From assembly GCA_907163075.1 (NCBI GenBank), contig CAJQTY010000001.1, forward strand, positions 1,984,001 through 2,048,000: a DNA stretch of 64,000 nucleotides. The letters run 5' to 3'. The translations under genes and the position numbers were made by a program. The notes beneath the pieces are model-generated. The model had not been told where the DNA came from and ran no database searches. It worked only from the letters and a program-made list of their open reading frames with translations. This document shows, piece by piece, positions 30,265-63,156 of this stretch; position 1 is the stretch's first letter; each line of letters starts with the position of its first letter. Source of the DNA: an uncultured Rhodocyclaceae bacterium (GTDB lineage: Bacteria > Pseudomonadota > Gammaproteobacteria > Burkholderiales > Rhodocyclaceae).

Positions 30265-33791
<3,527 letters not shown>

Positions 33792-53408: not shown

Positions 53409-54431
53409 TCAAGGTATCGCAGGCAGGCTCAGAATCTCGACGCAAACCGGGTTGTCACCCGTGACATGACTGTGGCCGGCGGTCGGCAGACCGGTGGACG
53501 GATTCAGCGAGTAAACGGTCAACCGGCCGGAGAGTTCGCCGGCAGCGACCAGCCAGCGCCCGGAAGGATCAATGCCCATGCCACGCGGCTGCGTTTCGGT
53601 CGGGTAGTGACCGAACAGCGATAGCTGGCCGCTCGGCAGATCAACCGCAAACACGGCAATGACACTCGCCGTGCGCTCCGTGGCATACAGGAAGCGGCCG
53701 TCGGGCGTGACGCGCAACTCGGCCGCCCACGGCTTGCCGGTAAAGCCGTGCGGCAGCATGCTGATCGACTGCTTCAGCGCCAGGCTGCCGGCGCCGGCGT
53801 CAAAAGCGAAAACATCGATACTGCCGTCGAGTTCGTTCAGGCAATGCACATGCCGGTTATCCGGAGAAAAGACCAGATGGCGCGGGCCGCTGCCCTGGCG
53901 CACCGGAGTCATGGCCGGCGCGTTCGCCGTCAGGCGGCCATCGTCGCCCAGGCGGTAGGAGCGGATCGCGTCGGCGCCGAGCATCGGCACCAGCAGCCAG
54001 CGGTTGCTGGCGTCCGTCAGCGCCGCATGGCAGCGCGGCAAATCCGTTTCCACCTGGCTAGCGGCGAGCGGTGCGCCACGTGCGTCAAGCGGGAAGACGG
54101 CCAGGCTGTTGTCGCCGTAGGACGCGGAAAAGACGAAGCGCATGGCCTGATCGCAGGCGACATAAGTGGGGCCGGCCGGAGCCGGCGCGCTGCCCAGCGG
54201 AGCCAGTTCGCCGCTGCCGGAATCAATGCCAAGTGCCAGGATGGCGTTTTCCGCGCGCAAGCCGGCATAAAGCCTGCGCCCGTCCGGGCTCAACTTCAGC
54301 GGCGACGGCGCGCCGGACGTGGCGAGGCGCTGGCGCAACCGGACTTCGCCGGAGTTCGTATCGAGGGCAAAAACATCTATTTCCCGGCTTTCGGCGCAGG
54401 AAACGTAAACAATGGCTTGAGTCATGATCAT
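53409..54431 (-). CDS. Lactonase family protein (6-phosphogluconolactonase-type beta-propeller)
   Basis: 340 residues of the seven-bladed Lactonase (Pgl/YbhE) fold. It has repeated blades of the type PLKLSPDGRRLYAGL, GPRHLVFSPDNRHVHCLNELDGSI, ELRVTPDGRFLYATERTASVI and PRGMGIDPSGRWLVAAGE. YbhE hydrolyses 6-phosphogluconolactone; others act on other lactones. No signal peptide. The start could be the ATG at 54431 or that at 54425. It is convergent with yheS and divergent from the arginase gene. Confidence 0.82.
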   Translation of the reverse strand: MIMTQAIVYVSCAESREIDVFALDTNSGEVRLRQRLATSGAPSPLKLSPDGRRLYAGLRAENAILALGIDSGSGELAPLGSAPAPAGPTYVACDQAMRFVFSASYGDNSLAVFPLDARGAPLAASQVETDLPRCHAALTDASNRWLLVPMLGADAIRSYRLGDDGRLTANAPAMTPVRQGSGPRHLVFSPDNRHVHCLNELDGSIDVFAFDAGAGSLALKQSISMLPHGFTGKPWAAELRVTPDGRFLYATERTASVIAVFAVDLPSGQLSLFGHYPTETQPRGMGIDPSGRWLVAAGELSGRLTVYSLNPSTGLPTAGHSHVTGDNPVCVEILSLPAIP

Positions 54432-54548
54432 TTGGCCTTGAAAGAGTTGGGAACGAAGACCGCCGGCGCTTCAGTCGACAGTGTGTACGAGAAATGGATA
54501 CACTCGCCAGCATTTCTTATCCTCTTTTCAAGGCAGGAATCCGAACAC

Positions 54549-55502
54549 ATGGTCAAGCACGGGGTAAGCCTCATTGGCGCGCCAACCGACATCGGCGCCG
54601 GCATGCTGGGCGCCCGCATGGGGCCCGAAGCCCTGCGCGTGGCGGGCATTTCCAACGCCATCGCGCAGTTCGGCTTCGACGTCAGGGATTGCGGCAATCT
54701 CAGCGGGCCGCCCAATCCGTGGCAAGCCGCCGTGAACGGTTTCCGGCATCTGCCCGAAGTCGTGCGCTGGAATCAATTGCTGCACGCGGCGGTATACCAG
54801 GAACTCCAGGACGACCGTCTGCCGCTGCTACTCGGCGGTGATCACTGCCTGGGCATCGGTTCGATCAGCGCCGTCGCCCGCCATTGCCGCGAACGTGGCC
54901 GCAAACTGCGCGTGCTGTGGTTCGACGCCCATGCCGACTTCAACACGGCGACGCTGACGCCGAGCGGTAATCTCCACGGCATGCCGGTCGCCTGCCTTTG
55001 TGGCCATGGCCCGCAGGCGCTGATCGAACTGGGCGGACAGGTGCCGGCGCTCAATCCGAAGGATATTCGCCAGATCGGCATCCGCAGCGTCGACGAAGGC
55101 GAAAAGCGCGTGGTGCACGACATCGGCATCGAGGTCTTCGACATGCGCTACATCGACGAGATGGGCATGCGCCACGCCATGGAACTGGCGCTCGCCCTGA
55201 TCGGCGCGGATACCCATCTGCACGTCAGCCTGGACGTCGACTTTCTCGACCCGGACATCGCGCCGGGCGTCGGCACCGCGGTGCGCGGCGGCCCGACCTA
55301 CCGCGAAGCCCAGTTGTGCATGGAAATGATCGCCGACACCGGGCGGCTGGCTTCACTCGACGTGGTTGAACTCAATCCCGCCCTCGACGTGCGCAACCAG
55401 ACGGCGGAACTGGCCGTCGACCTGATCGAGAGCCTGTTCGGCAAAAGCACACTGATGCGCAAGCCGGCAGCGACGCCACCGCCGCGCCACAACAGTCGAT
55501 AG
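54549..55502 (+). CDS. rocF: Arginase family protein, probable arginase
   Basis: 317 residues of the ureohydrolase fold. The manganese ligands are in GGDHCLG, FDAHADFNT and SLDVDFLDPDIAPG; the GNLHGMPVA and ELNPALD blocks are arginase-like. The usual serine after GGDH is cysteine here, though the metal-binding histidine is kept. The start at 54549 is chosen from the family alignment; the reading frame stays open upstream only as the antisense of the lactonase gene. Expected reaction: arginine to ornithine plus urea. No urease or arginine operon lies nearby. Confidence 0.85.
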   Translation: MVKHGVSLIGAPTDIGAGMLGARMGPEALRVAGISNAIAQFGFDVRDCGNLSGPPNPWQAAVNGFRHLPEVVRWNQLLHAAVYQELQDDRLPLLLGGDHCLGIGSISAVARHCRERGRKLRVLWFDAHADFNTATLTPSGNLHGMPVACLCGHGPQALIELGGQVPALNPKDIRQIGIRSVDEGEKRVVHDIGIEVFDMRYIDEMGMRHAMELALALIGADTHLHVSLDVDFLDPDIAPGVGTAVRGGPTYREAQLCMEMIADTGRLASLDVVELNPALDVRNQTAELAVDLIESLFGKSTLMRKPAATPPPRHNSR

Positions 55503-55658
55503 GCGACGGTGCCGCGACCGGCAGCTAGGCCGGAAAGATCTCATGTACCGGGGGCGACAACAACGCCCGAGCCTCGGCACCAGCCCGGATGACATGCAAG
55601 AACACGCGCCACGGAGGCGACCAGGCGCCGCACCAGCCAAGGACGACGGCTACCCTCG

Positions 55659-56393
55659 TCAAACGGGAACAGCAGCGGACGTGTAGTAATCGCCACTGCT
55701 TTGCTGGCCCCAGGACAGTTTCTCGGTCGGCGGACTGGTAAAGCGGTCCAGATTCTGATGCAGGAGAACCGCCGGCGCGTCGACGCGCGGGCACTGCCTG
55801 ACGCCGCCAAGCTGTTTGAAGTCCAGAAAACGCTTGTAGTAGCCCGCGTGGCGCGGATTGACTTCGATCACCGCATCGCTGGCGCCAAAGACATTCATGG
55901 CGTACTGGTAGGCCGAATGGATCAGTGACGTCAGCAAGTCTTTGGAGCTGAAATCCGGGTCCACCGCCAGCCTCGACACCTCGCAGACGACCCGACCCGG
56001 GCGGCGCAGGGTCGCGATCTCCGGGGAATAAAGCTCATCGGCCAGGAGGCCTGAAGTGGAGTCCCGACCGACCGTCAGGGTAGCCACCACCTCGTCAAAC
56101 TGCCAGGCGGCCAGGATCACCCGGTTCGGGTCGTCCATCAACTGCTTGGGGCTCTCGGTCTTGATGTTGTAGCCGCGCCAGGAGTACATCCGGCGCACCA
56201 GCATGCTGGCATGGCCATAGTCATGCTGGGTTTGCACTGGACGAATGTTGATTCCGCGCTGGCGCGGCAGGTGGCCCCAGATCGGCCTGAGCGGCGGGAG
56301 CAGCCGATCCTCCACCTTGGCCTGGGGGATGATTTTTTCGTCGATGGATCGACGTGTTGCCGGAAGCCAACCGGCGTTTGTGGCGGTCTGCAT
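55659..56393 (-). CDS. FeeM-like N-acyltransferase (GNAT fold)
   Basis: 244 residues with the core of N-acyl amino acid synthases and exosortase-associated acyltransferases: MLVRRMYSWRGYN, LAAWQFDEVVATLTVGRDS, VCEVSRLAVDPDFSSKDLLTSLIHSAYQYA and IEVNPRHAGYYKRFL. FeeM joins fatty acyl groups from acyl carrier protein to an amino acid such as tyrosine. No membrane segment. It starts 26 bases downstream of the bactofilin gene on the same strand and so lies in the sigma-54 transcript. The product is unknown. Confidence 0.8.
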   Translation of the reverse strand: MQTATNAGWLPATRRSIDEKIIPQAKVEDRLLPPLRPIWGHLPRQRGINIRPVQTQHDYGHASMLVRRMYSWRGYNIKTESPKQLMDDPNRVILAAWQFDEVVATLTVGRDSTSGLLADELYSPEIATLRRPGRVVCEVSRLAVDPDFSSKDLLTSLIHSAYQYAMNVFGASDAVIEVNPRHAGYYKRFLDFKQLGGVRQCPRVDAPAVLLHQNLDRFTSPPTEKLSWGQQSSGDYYTSAAVPV

Positions 56394-56419
56394 AATTGTG
56401 TCCAGTGTGTGTGGAAGTA

Positions 56420-57031
56420 CTACCCGACAGCGGCGCTCAGTTCGACGAACGGCTGTTCAACGAGCGGCTTGGTCTGTGCATTGGTCTTCGCGGAAATTAC
56501 GTTGATTTCCCCGCACAGTTCGCCGCCCTCGTCAATCACCAGTTTACCGTAATGGATTTTACCGCTAACTCGCCCGGTTGCATGAATAATTAACTGGGAA
56601 CGCGCGGTCAACTCGCCCTCGAACGAGCCGTGGATCTCGGCGATATCGATACTGACCTTTCCGGCGAAAGAGCCCTTCTCTGTAATCCGAATGACCCGGC
56701 TGTCCATCGTCGCCTCGACCCGGCCTTCGACTACCAGGGTGTCGCAGTCGAGTATTTCGGCGCCCTTGAGCTTGACATCGGGACCGACAATCAGGCGCGC
56801 GCCGATCACGTTTTCGTTGGTGGGAACGTCCTTGCCGGCGTTCGTCGGAGCGGGTGCCGGAGCATTTGATGCAGTTGCGGAGTTTGCTGGATTCATGGGT
56901 ATCTCTTTGGCGACTGTTACGCCCTTGTCCACAGTGGAGGAGTAGGACTTGGGCGCGGAACCGAGGACGGGCGGTGTATCGCGGGAAGCATTGGGCTCGT
57001 TGCGACCAAAAACGCCGGGTTTATTGAACAT
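56420..57031 (-). CDS. Bactofilin family cytoskeletal protein
   Basis: 203 residues. A disordered N-terminal part (1-80, rich in S, P, A, N) precedes the polymerising beta-helix (about 85-190) with repeating LIVGPDVKLKGAEILDCDTLVVEGRVEA-like turns (VSIDIAEIHGSFEGEL, KIHYGKLVIDEGGELCGEI). The ATG at 57031 has AAGGA eight bases upstream. Bactofilins form filaments at the membrane and place partners such as cell-wall or stalk enzymes. It is first in an operon with the FeeM-like gene, behind the sigma-54 promoter at 57078-57093. Confidence 0.9.
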   Translation of the reverse strand: MFNKPGVFGRNEPNASRDTPPVLGSAPKSYSSTVDKGVTVAKEIPMNPANSATASNAPAPAPTNAGKDVPTNENVIGARLIVGPDVKLKGAEILDCDTLVVEGRVEATMDSRVIRITEKGSFAGKVSIDIAEIHGSFEGELTARSQLIIHATGRVSGKIHYGKLVIDEGGELCGEINVISAKTNAQTKPLVEQPFVELSAAVG

Positions 57032-57077
57032 GCATTTTCCTTCTCGGTGGGCTAAAAACTGACATGGCAGCGATGAA

Positions 57078-57093
57078 AGCCAAATTCGTGCCA
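57078..57093 (-). promoter_or_regulatory. Near-consensus sigma-54 promoter for the bactofilin operon
   Basis: Read on the minus strand, TGGCACGAATTTGGCT matches the consensus TGGCACG-N4-TTGCW at all defined positions but one. GG and GC are separated by exactly ten bases. The predicted transcription start is about 57067, leaving a 36-base leader before the bactofilin ATG. Two TGTC-N10-GACA-type activator sites lie about 75-170 bp upstream, the usual enhancer distance. Confidence 0.75.
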
Positions 57094-57166
57094 AGATAAA
57101 ACTTAGATAAAAAACAAAACACTAAACGAAAATAGTTGATCATTATAAAAGATTTGCACCTAAAGT

Positions 57167-57184
57167 TGTCGGGAAAAAGCGACG
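57167..57184. promoter_or_regulatory. GlrR-like activator site 2
   Basis: TGTCGGGAAAAAGCGACG fits the GlrR motif TGTC-N10-GACA with one mismatch at the last base. It is 66 bp (centre to centre) from the perfect site at 57233 and about 75 bp upstream of the sigma-54 -24 element. Confidence 0.55.
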
Positions 57185-57232
57185 GTCTTGACGAACTATT
57201 TTTAAAAACCGTTCAGGCACAGCGTCTTGCCC

Positions 57233-57250
57233 TGTCGCTAAATGGCGACA
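57233..57250. promoter_or_regulatory. GlrR-like activator site 1 (perfect TGTC-N10-GACA)
   Basis: TGTCGCTAAATGGCGACA has perfect 6-bp arms and matches the E. coli GlrR consensus TGTC-N10-GACA exactly. It lies about 140 bp upstream of the sigma-54 promoter of the bactofilin gene and 250 bp before glrK, whose product controls GlrR. The rest of 57032-57499 is A+T-rich and contains no gene. Confidence 0.65.
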
Positions 57251-57499
57251 TGAAAATAAGTCATTGTTATAGCTGATTTTTTATTTTCTGATCGAGTGCA
57301 TTTTAGGCCTTAAGGGCGACAATTTCCTGTGCAAGACAGCGTGCTGGTGGACTAAACTTGCAGCACCAAAAAAAGTACCGGATCGCCAAGCCGCTAATAA
57401 CACAAGTTCAGACTCGGAAATCCACGGCGGATTTTCTGCCTGCTCTTGTCCCCTTGGAACGCGGGTAATGATTCCTGACCTTCCCGACGACGGACCCAG

Positions 57500-58912
57500 A
57501 TGATTCGAATATCCTTCCGCCAGAGCATGCTGGCAGGATTCCTGCTGATCGCGTTGCTACTGAGCTGGGCAGCGGTGCGCAGCTGGCTGGTGCTCGAACA
57601 GTTTGTCGAGCAAAGCCGACGCGGCAGCGAACAGGCACTGCAGCTGACAGCGTCAATCCAGGAACTCGCCGAACGAACCGTCGACCTCGAACGCAGCACG
57701 CGTCAGTTCATGGTACTCAGCGATCCCGCCCTGCTCGAGCGCTTCGATGCGAACGTGGGCCATTCCCTGGAGGCGATACAACGCCTGGAGGCAATCCCCG
57801 GTGAATCGCTGGGAACACTGCCCGGCGACTGGCGTCAGGCGATCGAGCAACTCAGTCATGGCCTTCACCGCTCGGCGCCGCGCGCCGACTTGCTGCCATT
57901 CTTGAGCCGCCTGACCGAAGTCAATAGCGAACTGGGCAATAGCGGCCAGCGCTGGGTCGACGAACAGCACGCCACGATGATGACCGAACTTGAGCAAGGC
58001 CGCCTGCGCCTGACACGCTTGGTAGCGGCAGCCGTCGGCGGCGCCTTCCTGGTCGCACTGGCCATGAGCTGGTGGCTGTCGCGACCGATCGAAAGCATCG
58101 AGCGCTCGATCGAGCACCTTGGCGAGAGCCGCTTCGACGCGCCGGTAATGGTTCGCGGCCCAGCCGACCTGCGCCGGGTGGGGCGCCGCCTGGACTGGCT
58201 GCGCCGCCGCCTGGGCGAACTGGAAGCAGATCGCGAGCGGACCTTGCGCCACGTTTCGCATGAGCTGAAGACGCCGCTGACGGCCCTGCGCGAAGGCATC
58301 GCCCTGCTCCAGGAGGGAGTGGTCGGATCGCTTGAAGGCTCGCAGCAGGAAGTGGTGGACATTCTGCAGCACAACGTGATGACGCTGCAGGGCCATATCG
58401 AAAGCCTGCTGCGGCTCAATGCCACGTCGCTCGACGCCCGCCAGCTCAGCTACCGGCCGCTGCTGCTGAAGAAGCTGCTGGCCGACGTCGTCCATGGTCG
58501 AGAGCTGCAGATTCAGGCGCGCCGCCTCACTGTACAGCGCGACGCCCCGGCGATTACGCGCCTGCTGGACGGCGAGAAATTGCAGGTGGCGCTCGACAAT
58601 CTGCTCTCCAACGCCATTGATTTCAGCCCCGAAGGCGGGCTGATCCGCCTGGAAGCAACGGTCACCAACGACACATTGTGCATCGCCTGCATCGACCAGG
58701 GGCCCGGAATTGCGAACGAGGATGCGCGGCGCATCTTCGAACCATTTGTCCAGGGCAGCCGCCCCGCGCCGACACCGCGCCAGGGTAGCGGCGTCGGCCT
58801 GTCGATCGTGCGTGAACTGACAGCCGCCATGGGCGGACGGGTACTGCTGGTGCCCAGCTCGGAGAAGGCGCCCGGAGCAAATTTCCGGATTGAGGTACCC
58901 TGTGAACGATAG
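57500..58912 (+). CDS. glrK: Sensor histidine kinase, GlrK (QseE) type
   Basis: 470 residues. TM1 (about 8-26), a periplasmic helical region of about 145 residues, and TM2 (about 172-190) are followed by HAMP. HisKA has RHVSHELKTPLTALREGIALLQEGVVG, matching E. coli GlrK closely. The ATPase has N-box LQVALDNLLSNAIDF, DQGPGI and GSGVGLSIV. It should phosphorylate GlrR, encoded two genes downstream. The order kinase-lipoprotein-regulator is the same as glrK-qseG-glrR. Divergent from the bactofilin operon. Confidence 0.88.
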   Translation: MIRISFRQSMLAGFLLIALLLSWAAVRSWLVLEQFVEQSRRGSEQALQLTASIQELAERTVDLERSTRQFMVLSDPALLERFDANVGHSLEAIQRLEAIPGESLGTLPGDWRQAIEQLSHGLHRSAPRADLLPFLSRLTEVNSELGNSGQRWVDEQHATMMTELEQGRLRLTRLVAAAVGGAFLVALAMSWWLSRPIESIERSIEHLGESRFDAPVMVRGPADLRRVGRRLDWLRRRLGELEADRERTLRHVSHELKTPLTALREGIALLQEGVVGSLEGSQQEVVDILQHNVMTLQGHIESLLRLNATSLDARQLSYRPLLLKKLLADVVHGRELQIQARRLTVQRDAPAITRLLDGEKLQVALDNLLSNAIDFSPEGGLIRLEATVTNDTLCIACIDQGPGIANEDARRIFEPFVQGSRPAPTPRQGSGVGLSIVRELTAAMGGRVLLVPSSEKAPGANFRIEVPCER

Positions 58913-58935
58913 TTTCCACAGGACAGGATAGATAG

Positions 58936-59520
58936 ATGATGGCGTTTCAATTGCGCGGCAACGTGCTCGGCCTGCTTGCCGCTTCCCTGCTTGCCGGATG
59001 CGCGGCGTCGCCGGAAGCAGGGCAGCAGACCGCGCCAATCACGGTGCAGGAAGCCGAGCCGGAGGTAAAAAAAACGGCCAGTGTCGACGAAACGGCGATG
59101 CTGCCGCTGCTCGGCTACATGCAATTGCTGTTGCGCATGTCACCGCCGGAGTTGCTGCGCGAGCGCTCGATGCTGGGGAGCATTCCGCAAACCCCGGCGA
59201 CACAGCTGCGCATGGCGATGCTCCTGGGACAGGCGCGCGGCCCCACGGATCTCGGCAGGGCGCTGGCCTTGCTCGACGGGGTGCTGAAATCGGGCGAGCG
59301 GGCGGCGTCCAGCCTGCACCCCCTGGCCCGGACACTGTCCAGTCAATACAGCGAGCGTCTGAGACTACAGACGCAGAACGAAAAACTGATCCAGCAATTG
59401 AATGAAAGCCTGCGCAAAGGTCTCGAATTACAGGAGAAGCTCGACGCCCTGACCAATATCGAACGCACCCTTCCTGTGGGGCCGAAATCAGGCGAGAACT
59501 CAACCGGAAGCCCGCGATGA
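58936..59520 (+). CDS. qseG: QseG-like outer-membrane lipoprotein
   Basis: 194 residues with a lipoprotein signal (NVLGLLAASLLAGC, lipobox LAGC near residue 22). The mature part is helical, ending in a coiled coil (RLRLQTQNEKLIQQLNESLRKGLELQEKLDAL). In E. coli QseG/YfhG lies between glrK and glrR and interacts with the kinase; the position and general features here are the same although sequence similarity is weak. AGGA precedes the ATG pair. It overlaps glrR by four bases. Confidence 0.75.
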   Translation: MMAFQLRGNVLGLLAASLLAGCAASPEAGQQTAPITVQEAEPEVKKTASVDETAMLPLLGYMQLLLRMSPPELLRERSMLGSIPQTPATQLRMAMLLGQARGPTDLGRALALLDGVLKSGERAASSLHPLARTLSSQYSERLRLQTQNEKLIQQLNESLRKGLELQEKLDALTNIERTLPVGPKSGENSTGSPR

Positions 59521-60917
59521 ACCGTGCACTCAAGTCTGATTCAAGCACCAGTTCGGCCCATATCCTGGTCATCGATGACGACCTCGATTTGCTGCGCCTC
59601 CTGTCCATGCGCCTGCACGCCTGGGGCTACCGGGTATCGACGGCGGCCTCGGCCGAGGAAGGCCTGGCGCGCATCGCCGTCGAACCGCCGCAACTGGTGC
59701 TCAGCGACATCCGCCTGCCGGGCAAGGACGGGCTGGCGCTGTTCGAAGAAGTGCGCTCGACGCTGCCGACGCTGCCGGTGATCCTGCTCACCGCCCACGG
59801 AACCATTCCCGACGCGGTACAGGCCATGTCGCGGGGCGTCTTCGGCTATCTGACCAAGCCTTTCGACAGCAAGGTTCTGCTCGCGAAGATCAAACAGGCC
59901 CTGCAACTCGCCCCGGCCAGCGCCGGGCAGGAAACCGGCACGGGCGAAACCTGGCGCGAGGGCATCGTCTTCCGCAGCAGCCTCATGGCTGAGCTGATGG
60001 AGGAAGCGCGGGTCGTCGCCGCCTCGGACGCCAGCGTCCTCATCCGCGGTGAAAGCGGAACCGGGAAAGAGGTTCTGGCGCGCGCCATTCACCGCGCCAG
60101 TCCTCGCTCCAAAGCACCGTTCGTGGCCATCAACTGCGGCGCGATTCCCGAACAGCTGCTCGAGTCGGAACTGTTCGGCCACGTCCGCGGCGCCTTCACC
60201 GGCGCCGCCAGCGCCCATGTCGGCCTGTTTCAGACGGCCGACGGCGGTACGCTGTTCCTCGACGAAATAGGCGACATGCCGCTGGCGCTGCAGGTCAAGC
60301 TGTTGCGCGTGCTGCAGGACCGGGCCGTGCGGCCGGTAGGGGCGACGCGCGCCGAGCCGGTCGATGTCCGCGTGCTGTCCGCCACGCACCGCGACCTGGA
60401 GGCGGCGATGGCCGAAGGCCTTTTCCGCGAGGACCTCTATTACCGACTGGACGTCGTCACCATGGCGCTGCCGCGCCTGGAAGACCGGCGCGAGGATATT
60501 CCGCTGCTGGCCGCCTATTTCGTGCAACAGCTGGTCAAAAAGTACAACAAGGGAATCGTCGGCATCGCGCCCGAAGCCGTTGAAGCACTGGCCAGCGCGG
60601 CGTGGCCGGGCAACGTCCGGCAGCTCTACAACGTGGTCGAGCAATCCTGCGCCCTGGCCACCACGCCGCTCATCTCGCTCACCCTGATCCAGCGCGCCCT
60701 GCGCGTGCCAACCATGGAGGCCTTGTCCTACGCCGAGGCCAAGCAGCGCTTCGAACGCAACTACCTGGTGCAACTGCTCAAACTCACCGACGGCAGCGTC
60801 GCCGATGCCGCGCGCATCGCCGACCGCAACCGAACCGAGTTTTATCGGCTGTTGCAGAAGCACGAGCTGACGCCGGACATGTTCCGCACGGCGCCGGGCA
60901 ACAACGCCGGTTGCTGA
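59517..60917 (+). CDS. glrR: Sigma-54-dependent response regulator GlrR
   Basis: 466 residues. The receiver (about 14-128) has [14 protein letters not shown], phospho-acceptor D in [29 protein letters not shown] and LTKPFD. The AAA+ domain (about 150-380) has Walker A GESGTGKE, the sigma-54 contact loop GAFTGA, and Walker [12 protein letters not shown]. The C-terminal helix-turn-helix has [22 protein letters not shown], nearly identical to E. coli GlrR. The DNA-binding helix identity supports recognition of TGTC-N10-GACA. It starts inside the stop of qseG (ATGA). Confidence 0.92.
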
Positions 60918-60941
60918 GCGGCGAACGGCGCGGCGGTGCGG

Positions 60942-61508
60942 CTAGGGCGCCCTGCGATCCCTGAAGCGGATGGCGCCGGCATTTTCCGGGTAGTGCCCGG
61001 TCTTGTCGGCGTAGTAGTCACGGAATAACGCGAGATCCCGTGCCTCGTCCCCGGAAAGCCTTACCCAGCGTTCGATGCCGATGCGCTTGCGGCCATAGTC
61101 GATGAAGCCGAGCCCGAGCGGCGCGTCAACGGCCAGCGCCAACTGGTAGAAACCGGTTTTCCAGTGATCGACATGCGCGCGCGTCCCTTCGGGCGTGATG
61201 CACATGCAGACGCTTTCGCTGCGGCCAAAAGCGTCGACCAGTTGACGGATTGTCCCCGAGCGCTCGCGGCGATTGATCGGAACGCCGCCCAGCCACAGGA
61301 GCAATCCTTTTAGCGGCCAGCGGAAGAGCGTGTCCTTGCCGGCCCAGTTGATGCTCACCCGGTGTTTGGCCTTGAACAGCACGCCGAGCGGAAAATCCCA
61401 GTTGGACGTGTGCGGATAGACCAGCACCACGGACTTCGGCCCCGGCGGCGGGGTATAGACCGACTGCCAGCCGAGCAGGCGGAGGACGAGAGCGGCCAGC
61501 CGGTGCAT
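60942..61508 (-). CDS. Lysophospholipid / 1-acyl-glycerol-3-phosphate acyltransferase family protein
   Basis: 188 residues. The acyltransferase motifs are YPHTSNWDFPLGV (H-x4-D), GGVPINRRERSGTI and the phosphate-binding CITPEGTRAHVDHW. A short hydrophobic N-terminus may anchor it to the membrane. Smaller than PlsC (about 245 residues) and of the subgroup that is often annotated as acyltransferase without a defined lipid. It is convergent with glrR and lies 25 bases downstream of ybiT on the same strand. Confidence 0.82.
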   Translation of the reverse strand: MHRLAALVLRLLGWQSVYTPPPGPKSVVLVYPHTSNWDFPLGVLFKAKHRVSINWAGKDTLFRWPLKGLLLWLGGVPINRRERSGTIRQLVDAFGRSESVCMCITPEGTRAHVDHWKTGFYQLALAVDAPLGLGFIDYGRKRIGIERWVRLSGDEARDLALFRDYYADKTGHYPENAGAIRFRDRRAP

Positions 61509-61533
61509 GGCGTGCTTCGCGGCCTGGCCGGGC

Positions 61534-63156
61534 TTACTCGATACCCTGGCTGGACAGGTATTCTTCGTAGTTACCGAGATAATTGACTACCGTGCCATCC
61601 ATGCGGATTTCGAGAATTCGCGTCGCCAGCGAGGAAACAAACTCGCGGTCGTGCGAAACGAAGACCAGGGTGCCTTTGAATTTCTCCAGCGCCGTGTTGA
61701 GCGATTCGATCGACTCCATGTCCAGGTGGTTGGTCGGCTCGTCCATGACCAGCACGTTGGGCTTCATCAGCATCAGCTTGCCGAAGATCATGCGCCCCTG
61801 TTCGCCACCGGAAATGACTTTCACCGCCTTGCGCACTTCGTCACCCGAGAACAGCAGGCGGCCGAGCGTGCCGCGGATCAGCGTTTCCAGGTCCTCACCG
61901 TCGGCGGCATTGGCGCGTGCGTACTCCGCCACCCAGTCGGTGAGGTTGGTGTCGCTCTTGAAATCGTCGGCGTGATCCTGCGCGTAATAGCCGCGCCGCG
62001 CCTTCTCGGTCCATTTGACGCTGCCGTACTGCGGCTGCAGGTCGCCCATGAGCAACTTCAGGAAGGTCGATTTGCCGACCCCGTTCTCGCCGATCACCGC
62101 CACCCGGTCGCCGGCGTTGAGCGTGAAATCGAGGTTGCTGAATATCTTGCGCTCGCTGCCGGGGTAGGCAAACGTCAGCTTTTCGACCTCTACCGCCTGG
62201 CGGTGCAGCTTTTCCTTCTCGTCGTATTCGAAGCGAATCCACGGGTACTGGCGCGACGACGGTTTGACGTCTTCCGGACGCAGTTTCTCGATCAGCTTGA
62301 CCCGTGACGTGGCCTGCTTGGCCTTGGACTTGTTGGCCGAAAAACGGCGCACGAAATCCTGCAGTTCCGAGATGCGTTCCTTGGCGCGCGCGTTGGCGTT
62401 CTGCTGCTGCTGGCGGGCCTGCGACGAGGCTTCCATGAAGTCGTCGTAGTTGCCCGGATAGACGGTGATCCTGCCGTAGTCCAGATCGGCCATGTGCGTG
62501 CACACCTGGTTCAGGAAGTGGCGGTCGTGGGAGATGATGATCATCGTGCTATTGCGCTCATTGAGCACATTTTCAAGCCAGCGGATGGTGGCGATGTCGA
62601 GGTTGTTGGTCGGTTCGTCGAGCAGCAATATGTCGGGATTCGAAAACAGCGCCTGCGTCAGCAGCACGCGCAGCTTCCAGCCCGGCGCCACTTCGCTCAT
62701 CGGGCCGAAGTGCTGTTCGGAGGGAATGCCGACGCCGAGCAGCAGCTCGCCGGCACGCGCTTCGGCGGTATATCCGCCATACTCGGCAAAATGGCTTTCC
62801 AGCTCTGCGGCGTGCAGGTAATCCTCCTCGCTGGCTTCCGGATTGGCGTAGATCGCATCCTTCTCCTGCATGCAGGCCCACATCTGCTCGTGCCCCATCA
62901 TCACCACGTCGATCACGCGCTGATCTTCGAAGGCGAACTGATCCTGGCGCAGGTAGGCCATGCGCTCGTGAGCGTCCTTCGAGACGTTGCCGGCGCTGGG
63001 CTCGAGTTCGCCATCAAGAATCTTCATGAAGGTCGACTTGCCGGAGCCATTGGCGCCGATCAGGCCATAGCGATAGCCCTCGCCGAACTTGACGGAAACG
63101 TTTTCAAAAAGGGGCTTGGCCCCGAACTGCATGGTGATGTTGGAGACGACGAGCAC
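61534..63156 (-). CDS. ybiT: ABC-F family ATPase, YbiT type
   Basis: 540 residues matching E. coli YbiT almost end to end. NBD1 has [17 protein letters not shown] and the degenerate signature [14 protein letters not shown] typical of this subfamily, with [11 protein letters not shown]. The linker is [25 protein letters not shown]2 has [25 protein letters not shown] and [14 protein letters not shown]. Start is GTG at 63156 with GAGG upstream. ABC-F proteins bind the ribosome and resolve stalls. It is the second ABC-F gene in the window. Confidence 0.93.

Follow-up and report, generated by a model that had tools for sequence, protein, structure and literature searches.

The bactofilin-glrK locus

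The window analysed here is a 64,000-nucleotide stretch from an uncultured Rhodocyclaceae bacterium (contig CAJQTY010000001.1 of assembly GCA_907163075.1), and our subject is the intergenic region within it that separates a bactofilin gene from a divergent operon for the GlrK-QseG-GlrR two-component system. We propose that this region would act as a GlrR-controlled sigma-54 promoter reading toward bactofilin. The bactofilin gene, its predicted target, lies on the minus strand (56420 to 57031), and its product matches the bactofilin domain PF04519 (5.3e-18; 65.5 bits against a cut-off of 27.9). It is followed after 26 bp, on the same strand, by a FeeM-like N-acyltransferase gene (55659 to 56393), the probable co-target. 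The plus strand has the gene order glrK-qseG-glrR. glrK (57500 to 58912) encodes a histidine kinase with HisKA and HATPase_c domains in Pfam and 35% identity to Escherichia coli GlrK across 423 amino acids. The lipoprotein gene behind it (58936 to 59520) is assigned as qseG-like mainly from its position, its product having a lipobox-like LLAGC, noted by eye, and resembling QseG of E. coli only weakly (E = 0.023 across 27 amino acids). glrR (59517 to 60917) encodes a response regulator that shares 56% identity with GlrR of E. coli across 449 amino acids.

The intergenic region is 468 bases long, and its GC content falls to 36%. The -24/-12 box TGGCACGAATTTGGCT (57078 to 57093, minus strand), with one mismatch to the sigma-54 consensus TGGCACN5TTGCW, reads toward bactofilin. 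GlrR operators have the form TGTC-N10-GACA, and two predicted operators lie upstream of the box, 66 bp apart: a proximal one with one mismatch, TGTCGGGAAAAAGCGACG (57167 to 57184), and a perfect distal one, TGTCGCTAAATGGCGACA (57233 to 57250). A first-pass annotation of this DNA had listed a near-perfect sigma-54 promoter and this pair of sites, one perfect and one with a single mismatch, and direct reading of the sequence bears it out on each. From the spacing of the box, the bactofilin transcript is predicted to start near 57068, which would centre the operators at about -108 and -174. An element found by eye in the stretch from the proximal operator to the box, TAGTGTTTTGTTT (57112 to 57124, minus strand), departs at one position from the consensus for integration host factor (IHF), YAAN4TTGWTW, and may be an IHF site. 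A simple scan of 55400 to 61600 for sigma-70 promoters found none.

Conservation, predicted target and probable reader of the putative promoter

A bactofilin scan of the GTDB genome collection yielded 239 relatives, and the best 80 of these entered the analysis; in what follows, fetched loci are designated L and genomes G, the window's own genome, of 5.2 Mb, being G000. glrK lies divergently upstream of bactofilin in 76 of the 80 loci; among the four that differ, L049 is truncated at the end of its contig. The promoter comparison comprised the window and 75 of the 80 loci, the five omitted being those in which the match did not start at residue 1. By the terms of the first-pass annotation, absence of the sites and the box where the gene order is retained would have refuted its proposal, and both were found: 72 of the 76 bactofilin upstream regions contain at least two sites with no more than one mismatch each, and 72 contain a box toward bactofilin within two mismatches. 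A perfect site is present in 70 of the 76, and the box is within one mismatch of the consensus in 60. In the 71 regions that were aligned (four of the 76 had no anchor and one was too short), the operators are spaced 65 to 67 bp apart in 67 and 64 bp apart in three, and one region has a single operator; in 38, the distances from the two operators to the box are exactly 158 and 92 bp. The 40-member class with this 158/92 spacing, whose median pairwise identity is 49%, holds 1.4, 1.5 and 1.6 bits per column in the operators and box and 0.5 to 0.6 in its other segments, and both operators of the window correspond to conserved column blocks.

The sites sit between bactofilin and glrK, with GlrR encoded alongside, and this would also suit a role in autoregulation of the glrK operon, the box toward bactofilin being incidental. 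Opposed to autoregulation is the orientation of the box, which reads toward bactofilin. Furthermore, in three of the four loci in which bactofilin and glrK are not neighbours, the sites accompany bactofilin: L065 and L073 retain them at bactofilin and encode their GlrR ortholog elsewhere in the genome, and in L352, with bactofilin 1.7 kb from glrK, both sites are perfect and the box departs from the consensus at two positions. A further 40 glrR loci were inspected, 20 of them from genomes that encode GlrR without the strict layout of two sites plus box and 20 others, mostly with it. Of these, 25 are glrK loci without an adjoining bactofilin gene, and upstream of glrK a strict site pair is absent from all 25; a pair lies close behind glrR in 14, as expected, since many loci were chosen for that layout. 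In 13 of the 40, in which bactofilin adjoins or lies near glrK or its place, at least one site is present in every case and at least two in 10. These comparisons show that the sites go with the putative target gene rather than with glrK, and they leave autoregulation with little probability. L360 (6930 to 8564), which has the order glrR, site pair, box, glycine-zipper gene and bactofilin, is on its gene order a second arrangement linking GlrR with bactofilin. In L361 and L362, too, bactofilin is found behind glrR. Among 11 genomes of the window's own genus, GlrR and bactofilin are both present in five and both absent in six.

The GAFTGA loop that the first-pass annotation had attributed to GlrR is present in its translation, and the match that it had claimed for the DNA-binding helix holds, the helix being near-identical to that of E. 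coli GlrR, AGRNRTEFYKLL. GlrR carries receiver and sigma-54 AAA+ domains in Pfam, and its best-scoring model is PRK15115 (GlrR), at 593 bits, which is below the curated cut-off of 763. TGTC-N10-GACA occurs three times in the glmY promoter of E. coli K-12; 63 bp separate two of these sites, which have an IHF-like element between them. PMC6075780 describes binding of QseF, together with IHF, at TGTN12ACA sites upstream of glmY, and activation by QseF of glmY and rpoE. In a set of 297 genomes of the family, the strict layout was found in 107 (140 places, against one control place) and a GlrR ortholog in 151; both occur in 103 genomes, the layout only in four, GlrR only in 48, and neither in 142.

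The own genome encodes 12 further GlrR-like activators, and the sites might be read by one of these or by some other sigma-54 activator instead of GlrR. Related dyads (TGTCTG...CAGACA) do stand before ABC (ATP-binding cassette) binding-protein genes, where another activator apparently reads them, and three of the four layout-only genomes (G001, G467 and G512, the fourth being G030) carry such a sister motif, TGTC followed by G/A in the next pair, upstream of genes of this kind. The co-occurrence of the layout with GlrR, the operators and near-identical helix shared with E. coli, and the many genomes that place the layout directly behind glrR all argue for GlrR as the reader and make a different activator an outside prospect. 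The motif NRTEFY, in a crude pattern test of the 13 GlrR-like proteins of the own genome, was found in GlrR only.

A single perfect operator or a single box proves little, because about one to two chance matches are to be expected in the window. Two perfect TGTC-N10-GACA sequences occur there against 0.8 expected by chance, and 2.25 boxes with no more than one mismatch are expected; genome-wide, single operators are not enriched, at 72 against 101 in the reversed control. The other perfect match in the window, at 31959 to 31976, has no sigma-54 box at the set distance and is therefore probably a chance occurrence. The pattern of two sites plus box occurs at two places in the own genome and that of one site plus box at three, and the control contains neither. 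The third one-site-plus-box place, which carries the sister motif, stands about 95 bp behind the part that was matched in another activator gene. Site pairs lacking a box were rejected as a signal: they occur in 59 of 121 family genomes, and the reversed control matches many genomes too. That the arrangement as a whole is fortuitous is hardly credible, however often its elements occur singly, given that the combined spaced layout was never reproduced in 200,000 first-order Markov sequences built from the intergenic region, that the family genomes contain 140 such places and their control one, and that conservation forms islands at the operators and box.

GlrR-type promoters and acyltransferases elsewhere

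A first clustering of the genes that follow 163 layout places in the fetched loci gave bactofilin as the next gene in 55 and was polluted by wrong-frame open reading frames (ORFs); a cleaner clustering of 172 places gave bactofilin in 63, counting nine places from loci that had been fetched through bactofilin similarity, all nine of which are bactofilin. The second layout places of G382, G436 and G457 lie outside this count. The next gene encodes a BON-domain protein in 21 of the 172 places and a glycine-zipper protein in 24, the latter falling into two families of 17 and 14 that share seven, and the domains BON, Rick_17kDa_Anti and Gly-zipper_Omp were confirmed by Pfam on single representatives. 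On the evidence of the genes that follow it, relatives employ this layout for envelope genes of the BON-domain and glycine-zipper kinds. Five further places precede genes of a small membrane-protein family that has no Pfam match, and 11, with the sister motif, precede those for ABC binding proteins. This sister layout, TGTCYG...CRGACA, was seen upstream of ABC binding-protein genes in L263, L264, L266, L195, L198, L218 and others, often with an IHF consensus between the dyads, and it is probably read by another sigma-54 activator. At the 63 bactofilin places, a relaxed IHF element between the proximal operator and the box occurs in 11, against 0.26 expected, and stands 31 to 33 bp before the box.

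An order-wide sample contained 62 layout places in 42 of 250 genomes and a class-wide sample 18 places in 14 of 369 genomes, with none in the control of either. glrR adjoins the layout in seven of 17 new class-wide loci, and the following genes, judged by eye, include those for EF-hand, EF-hand-BON and small membrane proteins. In L346, L351, L225, L282, L285 and L286, layouts or site pairs flank the glrK-glrR operon on both sides, about 3.5 kb apart, one at bactofilin and the other behind glrR, where the loci that were inspected have BON-domain genes. The second strict GlrR-type promoter of the own genome, L098 6261 to 6426 (G000:C1:621261-621426), has two perfect operators 66 bp apart and the box TGGCATCGTTATTGCT. 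The next ORF, about 200 nt on, is 67 to 73 amino acids long and has no Pfam match, and it is followed by what looks by eye like a sodC-like gene; on the other side, also by eye, is an IS630-like transposase ORF.

The acyltransferase behind bactofilin in the window matches PF21926 (2e-51; 174 bits against a cut-off of 27) and, over residues 60 to 210, the N-acyl amino acid synthase FeeM (PDB 2g0b; E = 1.1e-9). It resembles FeeM in this domain and structure match and differs in being a distant relative placed behind bactofilin. Judged from its position, its gene is probably co-transcribed with bactofilin in the own genome; of the 79 loci that could be evaluated, 52 have the acyltransferase gene behind bactofilin, which makes it a frequent but not a constant partner. 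The genome encodes a second FeeM-family protein (L099 3678 to 4976; match G000:C1:523319-523798), with a longer C-terminal part and ABC-transporter-like neighbours. In a single case, L254 (G511:C12), a GlrR-type promoter precedes the gene for a GNAT protein (Acetyltransf_5, 5.8e-35) with weak matches to FeeM and to autoinducer synthases, a candidate second type of acyl-transfer enzyme.

Proposed GlrR control of bactofilin and its relation to known systems

Several observations weigh against control of bactofilin by GlrR. L016, L080 and L082 hold only one site, and L079, which encodes bactofilin and, unlinked to it, a GlrR ortholog, has no sites. In the 13 additional loci where bactofilin adjoins or lies near glrK or its place, a fitting box within two mismatches was found in only five, 11 of the 13 coming from genomes picked for absence of the strict layout. 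The strict layout is absent from 48 of the 151 GlrR genomes, and kinship among the genomes makes the Fisher value of the co-occurrence too small. Because GlrR and bactofilin are encoded by neighbouring genes, their joint loss within the genus may be a single event. The IHF-like element of the window is itself weak, and an IHF consensus between the operators occurs in only one of the 63 bactofilin places, though it is enriched in several target sets.

Nevertheless, genome comparison shows the cis elements, their conservation and their association with GlrR, and the cis-regulatory claim that rests on this comparison is well supported. We accordingly regard it as highly probable that GlrR and sigma-54 activate bactofilin and, in the own genome, probably also the FeeM-like acyltransferase gene behind it. 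GlrR/sigma-54 control of the neighbouring bactofilin gene had been put forward in the first-pass annotation, and it gains support from the conservation of sites and box, from the sites kept at bactofilin away from glrK (L065, L073 and L352, with L079 as the counter-example) and from the glmY operators. In the mechanism that we envisage, phosphorylated GlrR would bind the two TGTC-N10-GACA operators 66 bp apart and, probably aided by IHF bending the DNA, activate the sigma-54 polymerase at the -24/-12 box; the output would be bactofilin and, in the own genome, probably the FeeM-like acyltransferase. Operator binding, phosphorylation by GlrK, activation by QseG and an envelope signal are here inferred from E. 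coli.

The GlrK-QseG-GlrR system of E. coli (QseE-QseG-QseF, controlling glmY and rpoE) has the same gene order, as far as the qseG-like gene answers to qseG, the same operator dyads and a sigma-54 promoter. Its paired operators lie 63 bp apart rather than 66 bp, glmY has three operators where we find two, and IHF assists the circuit in E. coli (PMC6075780). The two systems differ in the neighbouring output: here a bactofilin gene, encoded on the opposite strand, stands in place of the GlmY RNA. A GlmY-like RNA in the intergenic region was rejected, an Rfam search of 54000 to 63000 for GlmY having returned no match up to E = 5; the same search of the own genome found none, and the E. coli control was positive. 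Among 61 family genomes, one, G024, gave a borderline GlmY match of 33 bits, at the family cut-off, which lies (L322; G024:C26:47052-47213) on another contig than the glrR of that genome. The PrsK-PrsR system of PEP-CTERM genes (PMC1569441) likewise combines an NtrC-type regulator, sigma-54 promoters and upstream operators, and its PrsR motif 1 is 17 nt long and ends in TTTACA. PrsK-PrsR regulation was rejected for the window, because the operators are of the form TGTC-N10-GACA and do not end in TTTACA as those described there do (PMC1569441); GlrR of the window scores 375.5 bits with the PrsR model, below its cut-off of 502.6, and 593 bits with the GlrR model. A text search of openly licensed PubMed Central papers found none that joins bactofilin with GlrR or QseF.

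More tentatively, and as a possibility that we rate somewhat below even, GlrR may be an ancient regulator of envelope structure whose DNA code has stayed the same and whose output has been exchanged from one lineage to another: in many relatives it would be envelope proteins of the BON-domain, EF-hand and glycine-zipper types, with their genes behind glrR, in enterobacteria the small RNA glmY, and in this family a bactofilin, frequently accompanied by an N-acyl amino acid synthase. Bactofilin might then be an on-demand scaffold, made along with a modified lipid when the envelope is stressed, and not a constitutive shape element. If control of bactofilin by GlrR is correct, a known envelope-stress two-component system would have retained its DNA code and exchanged a regulatory RNA for a cytoskeletal protein as its neighbouring output. 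The bactofilins of this group would gain a signal input, the FeeM-like acyltransferase would gain a condition under which its expression could be tested, and the constant distance between the operators would offer a ready probe for GlrR regulons elsewhere.

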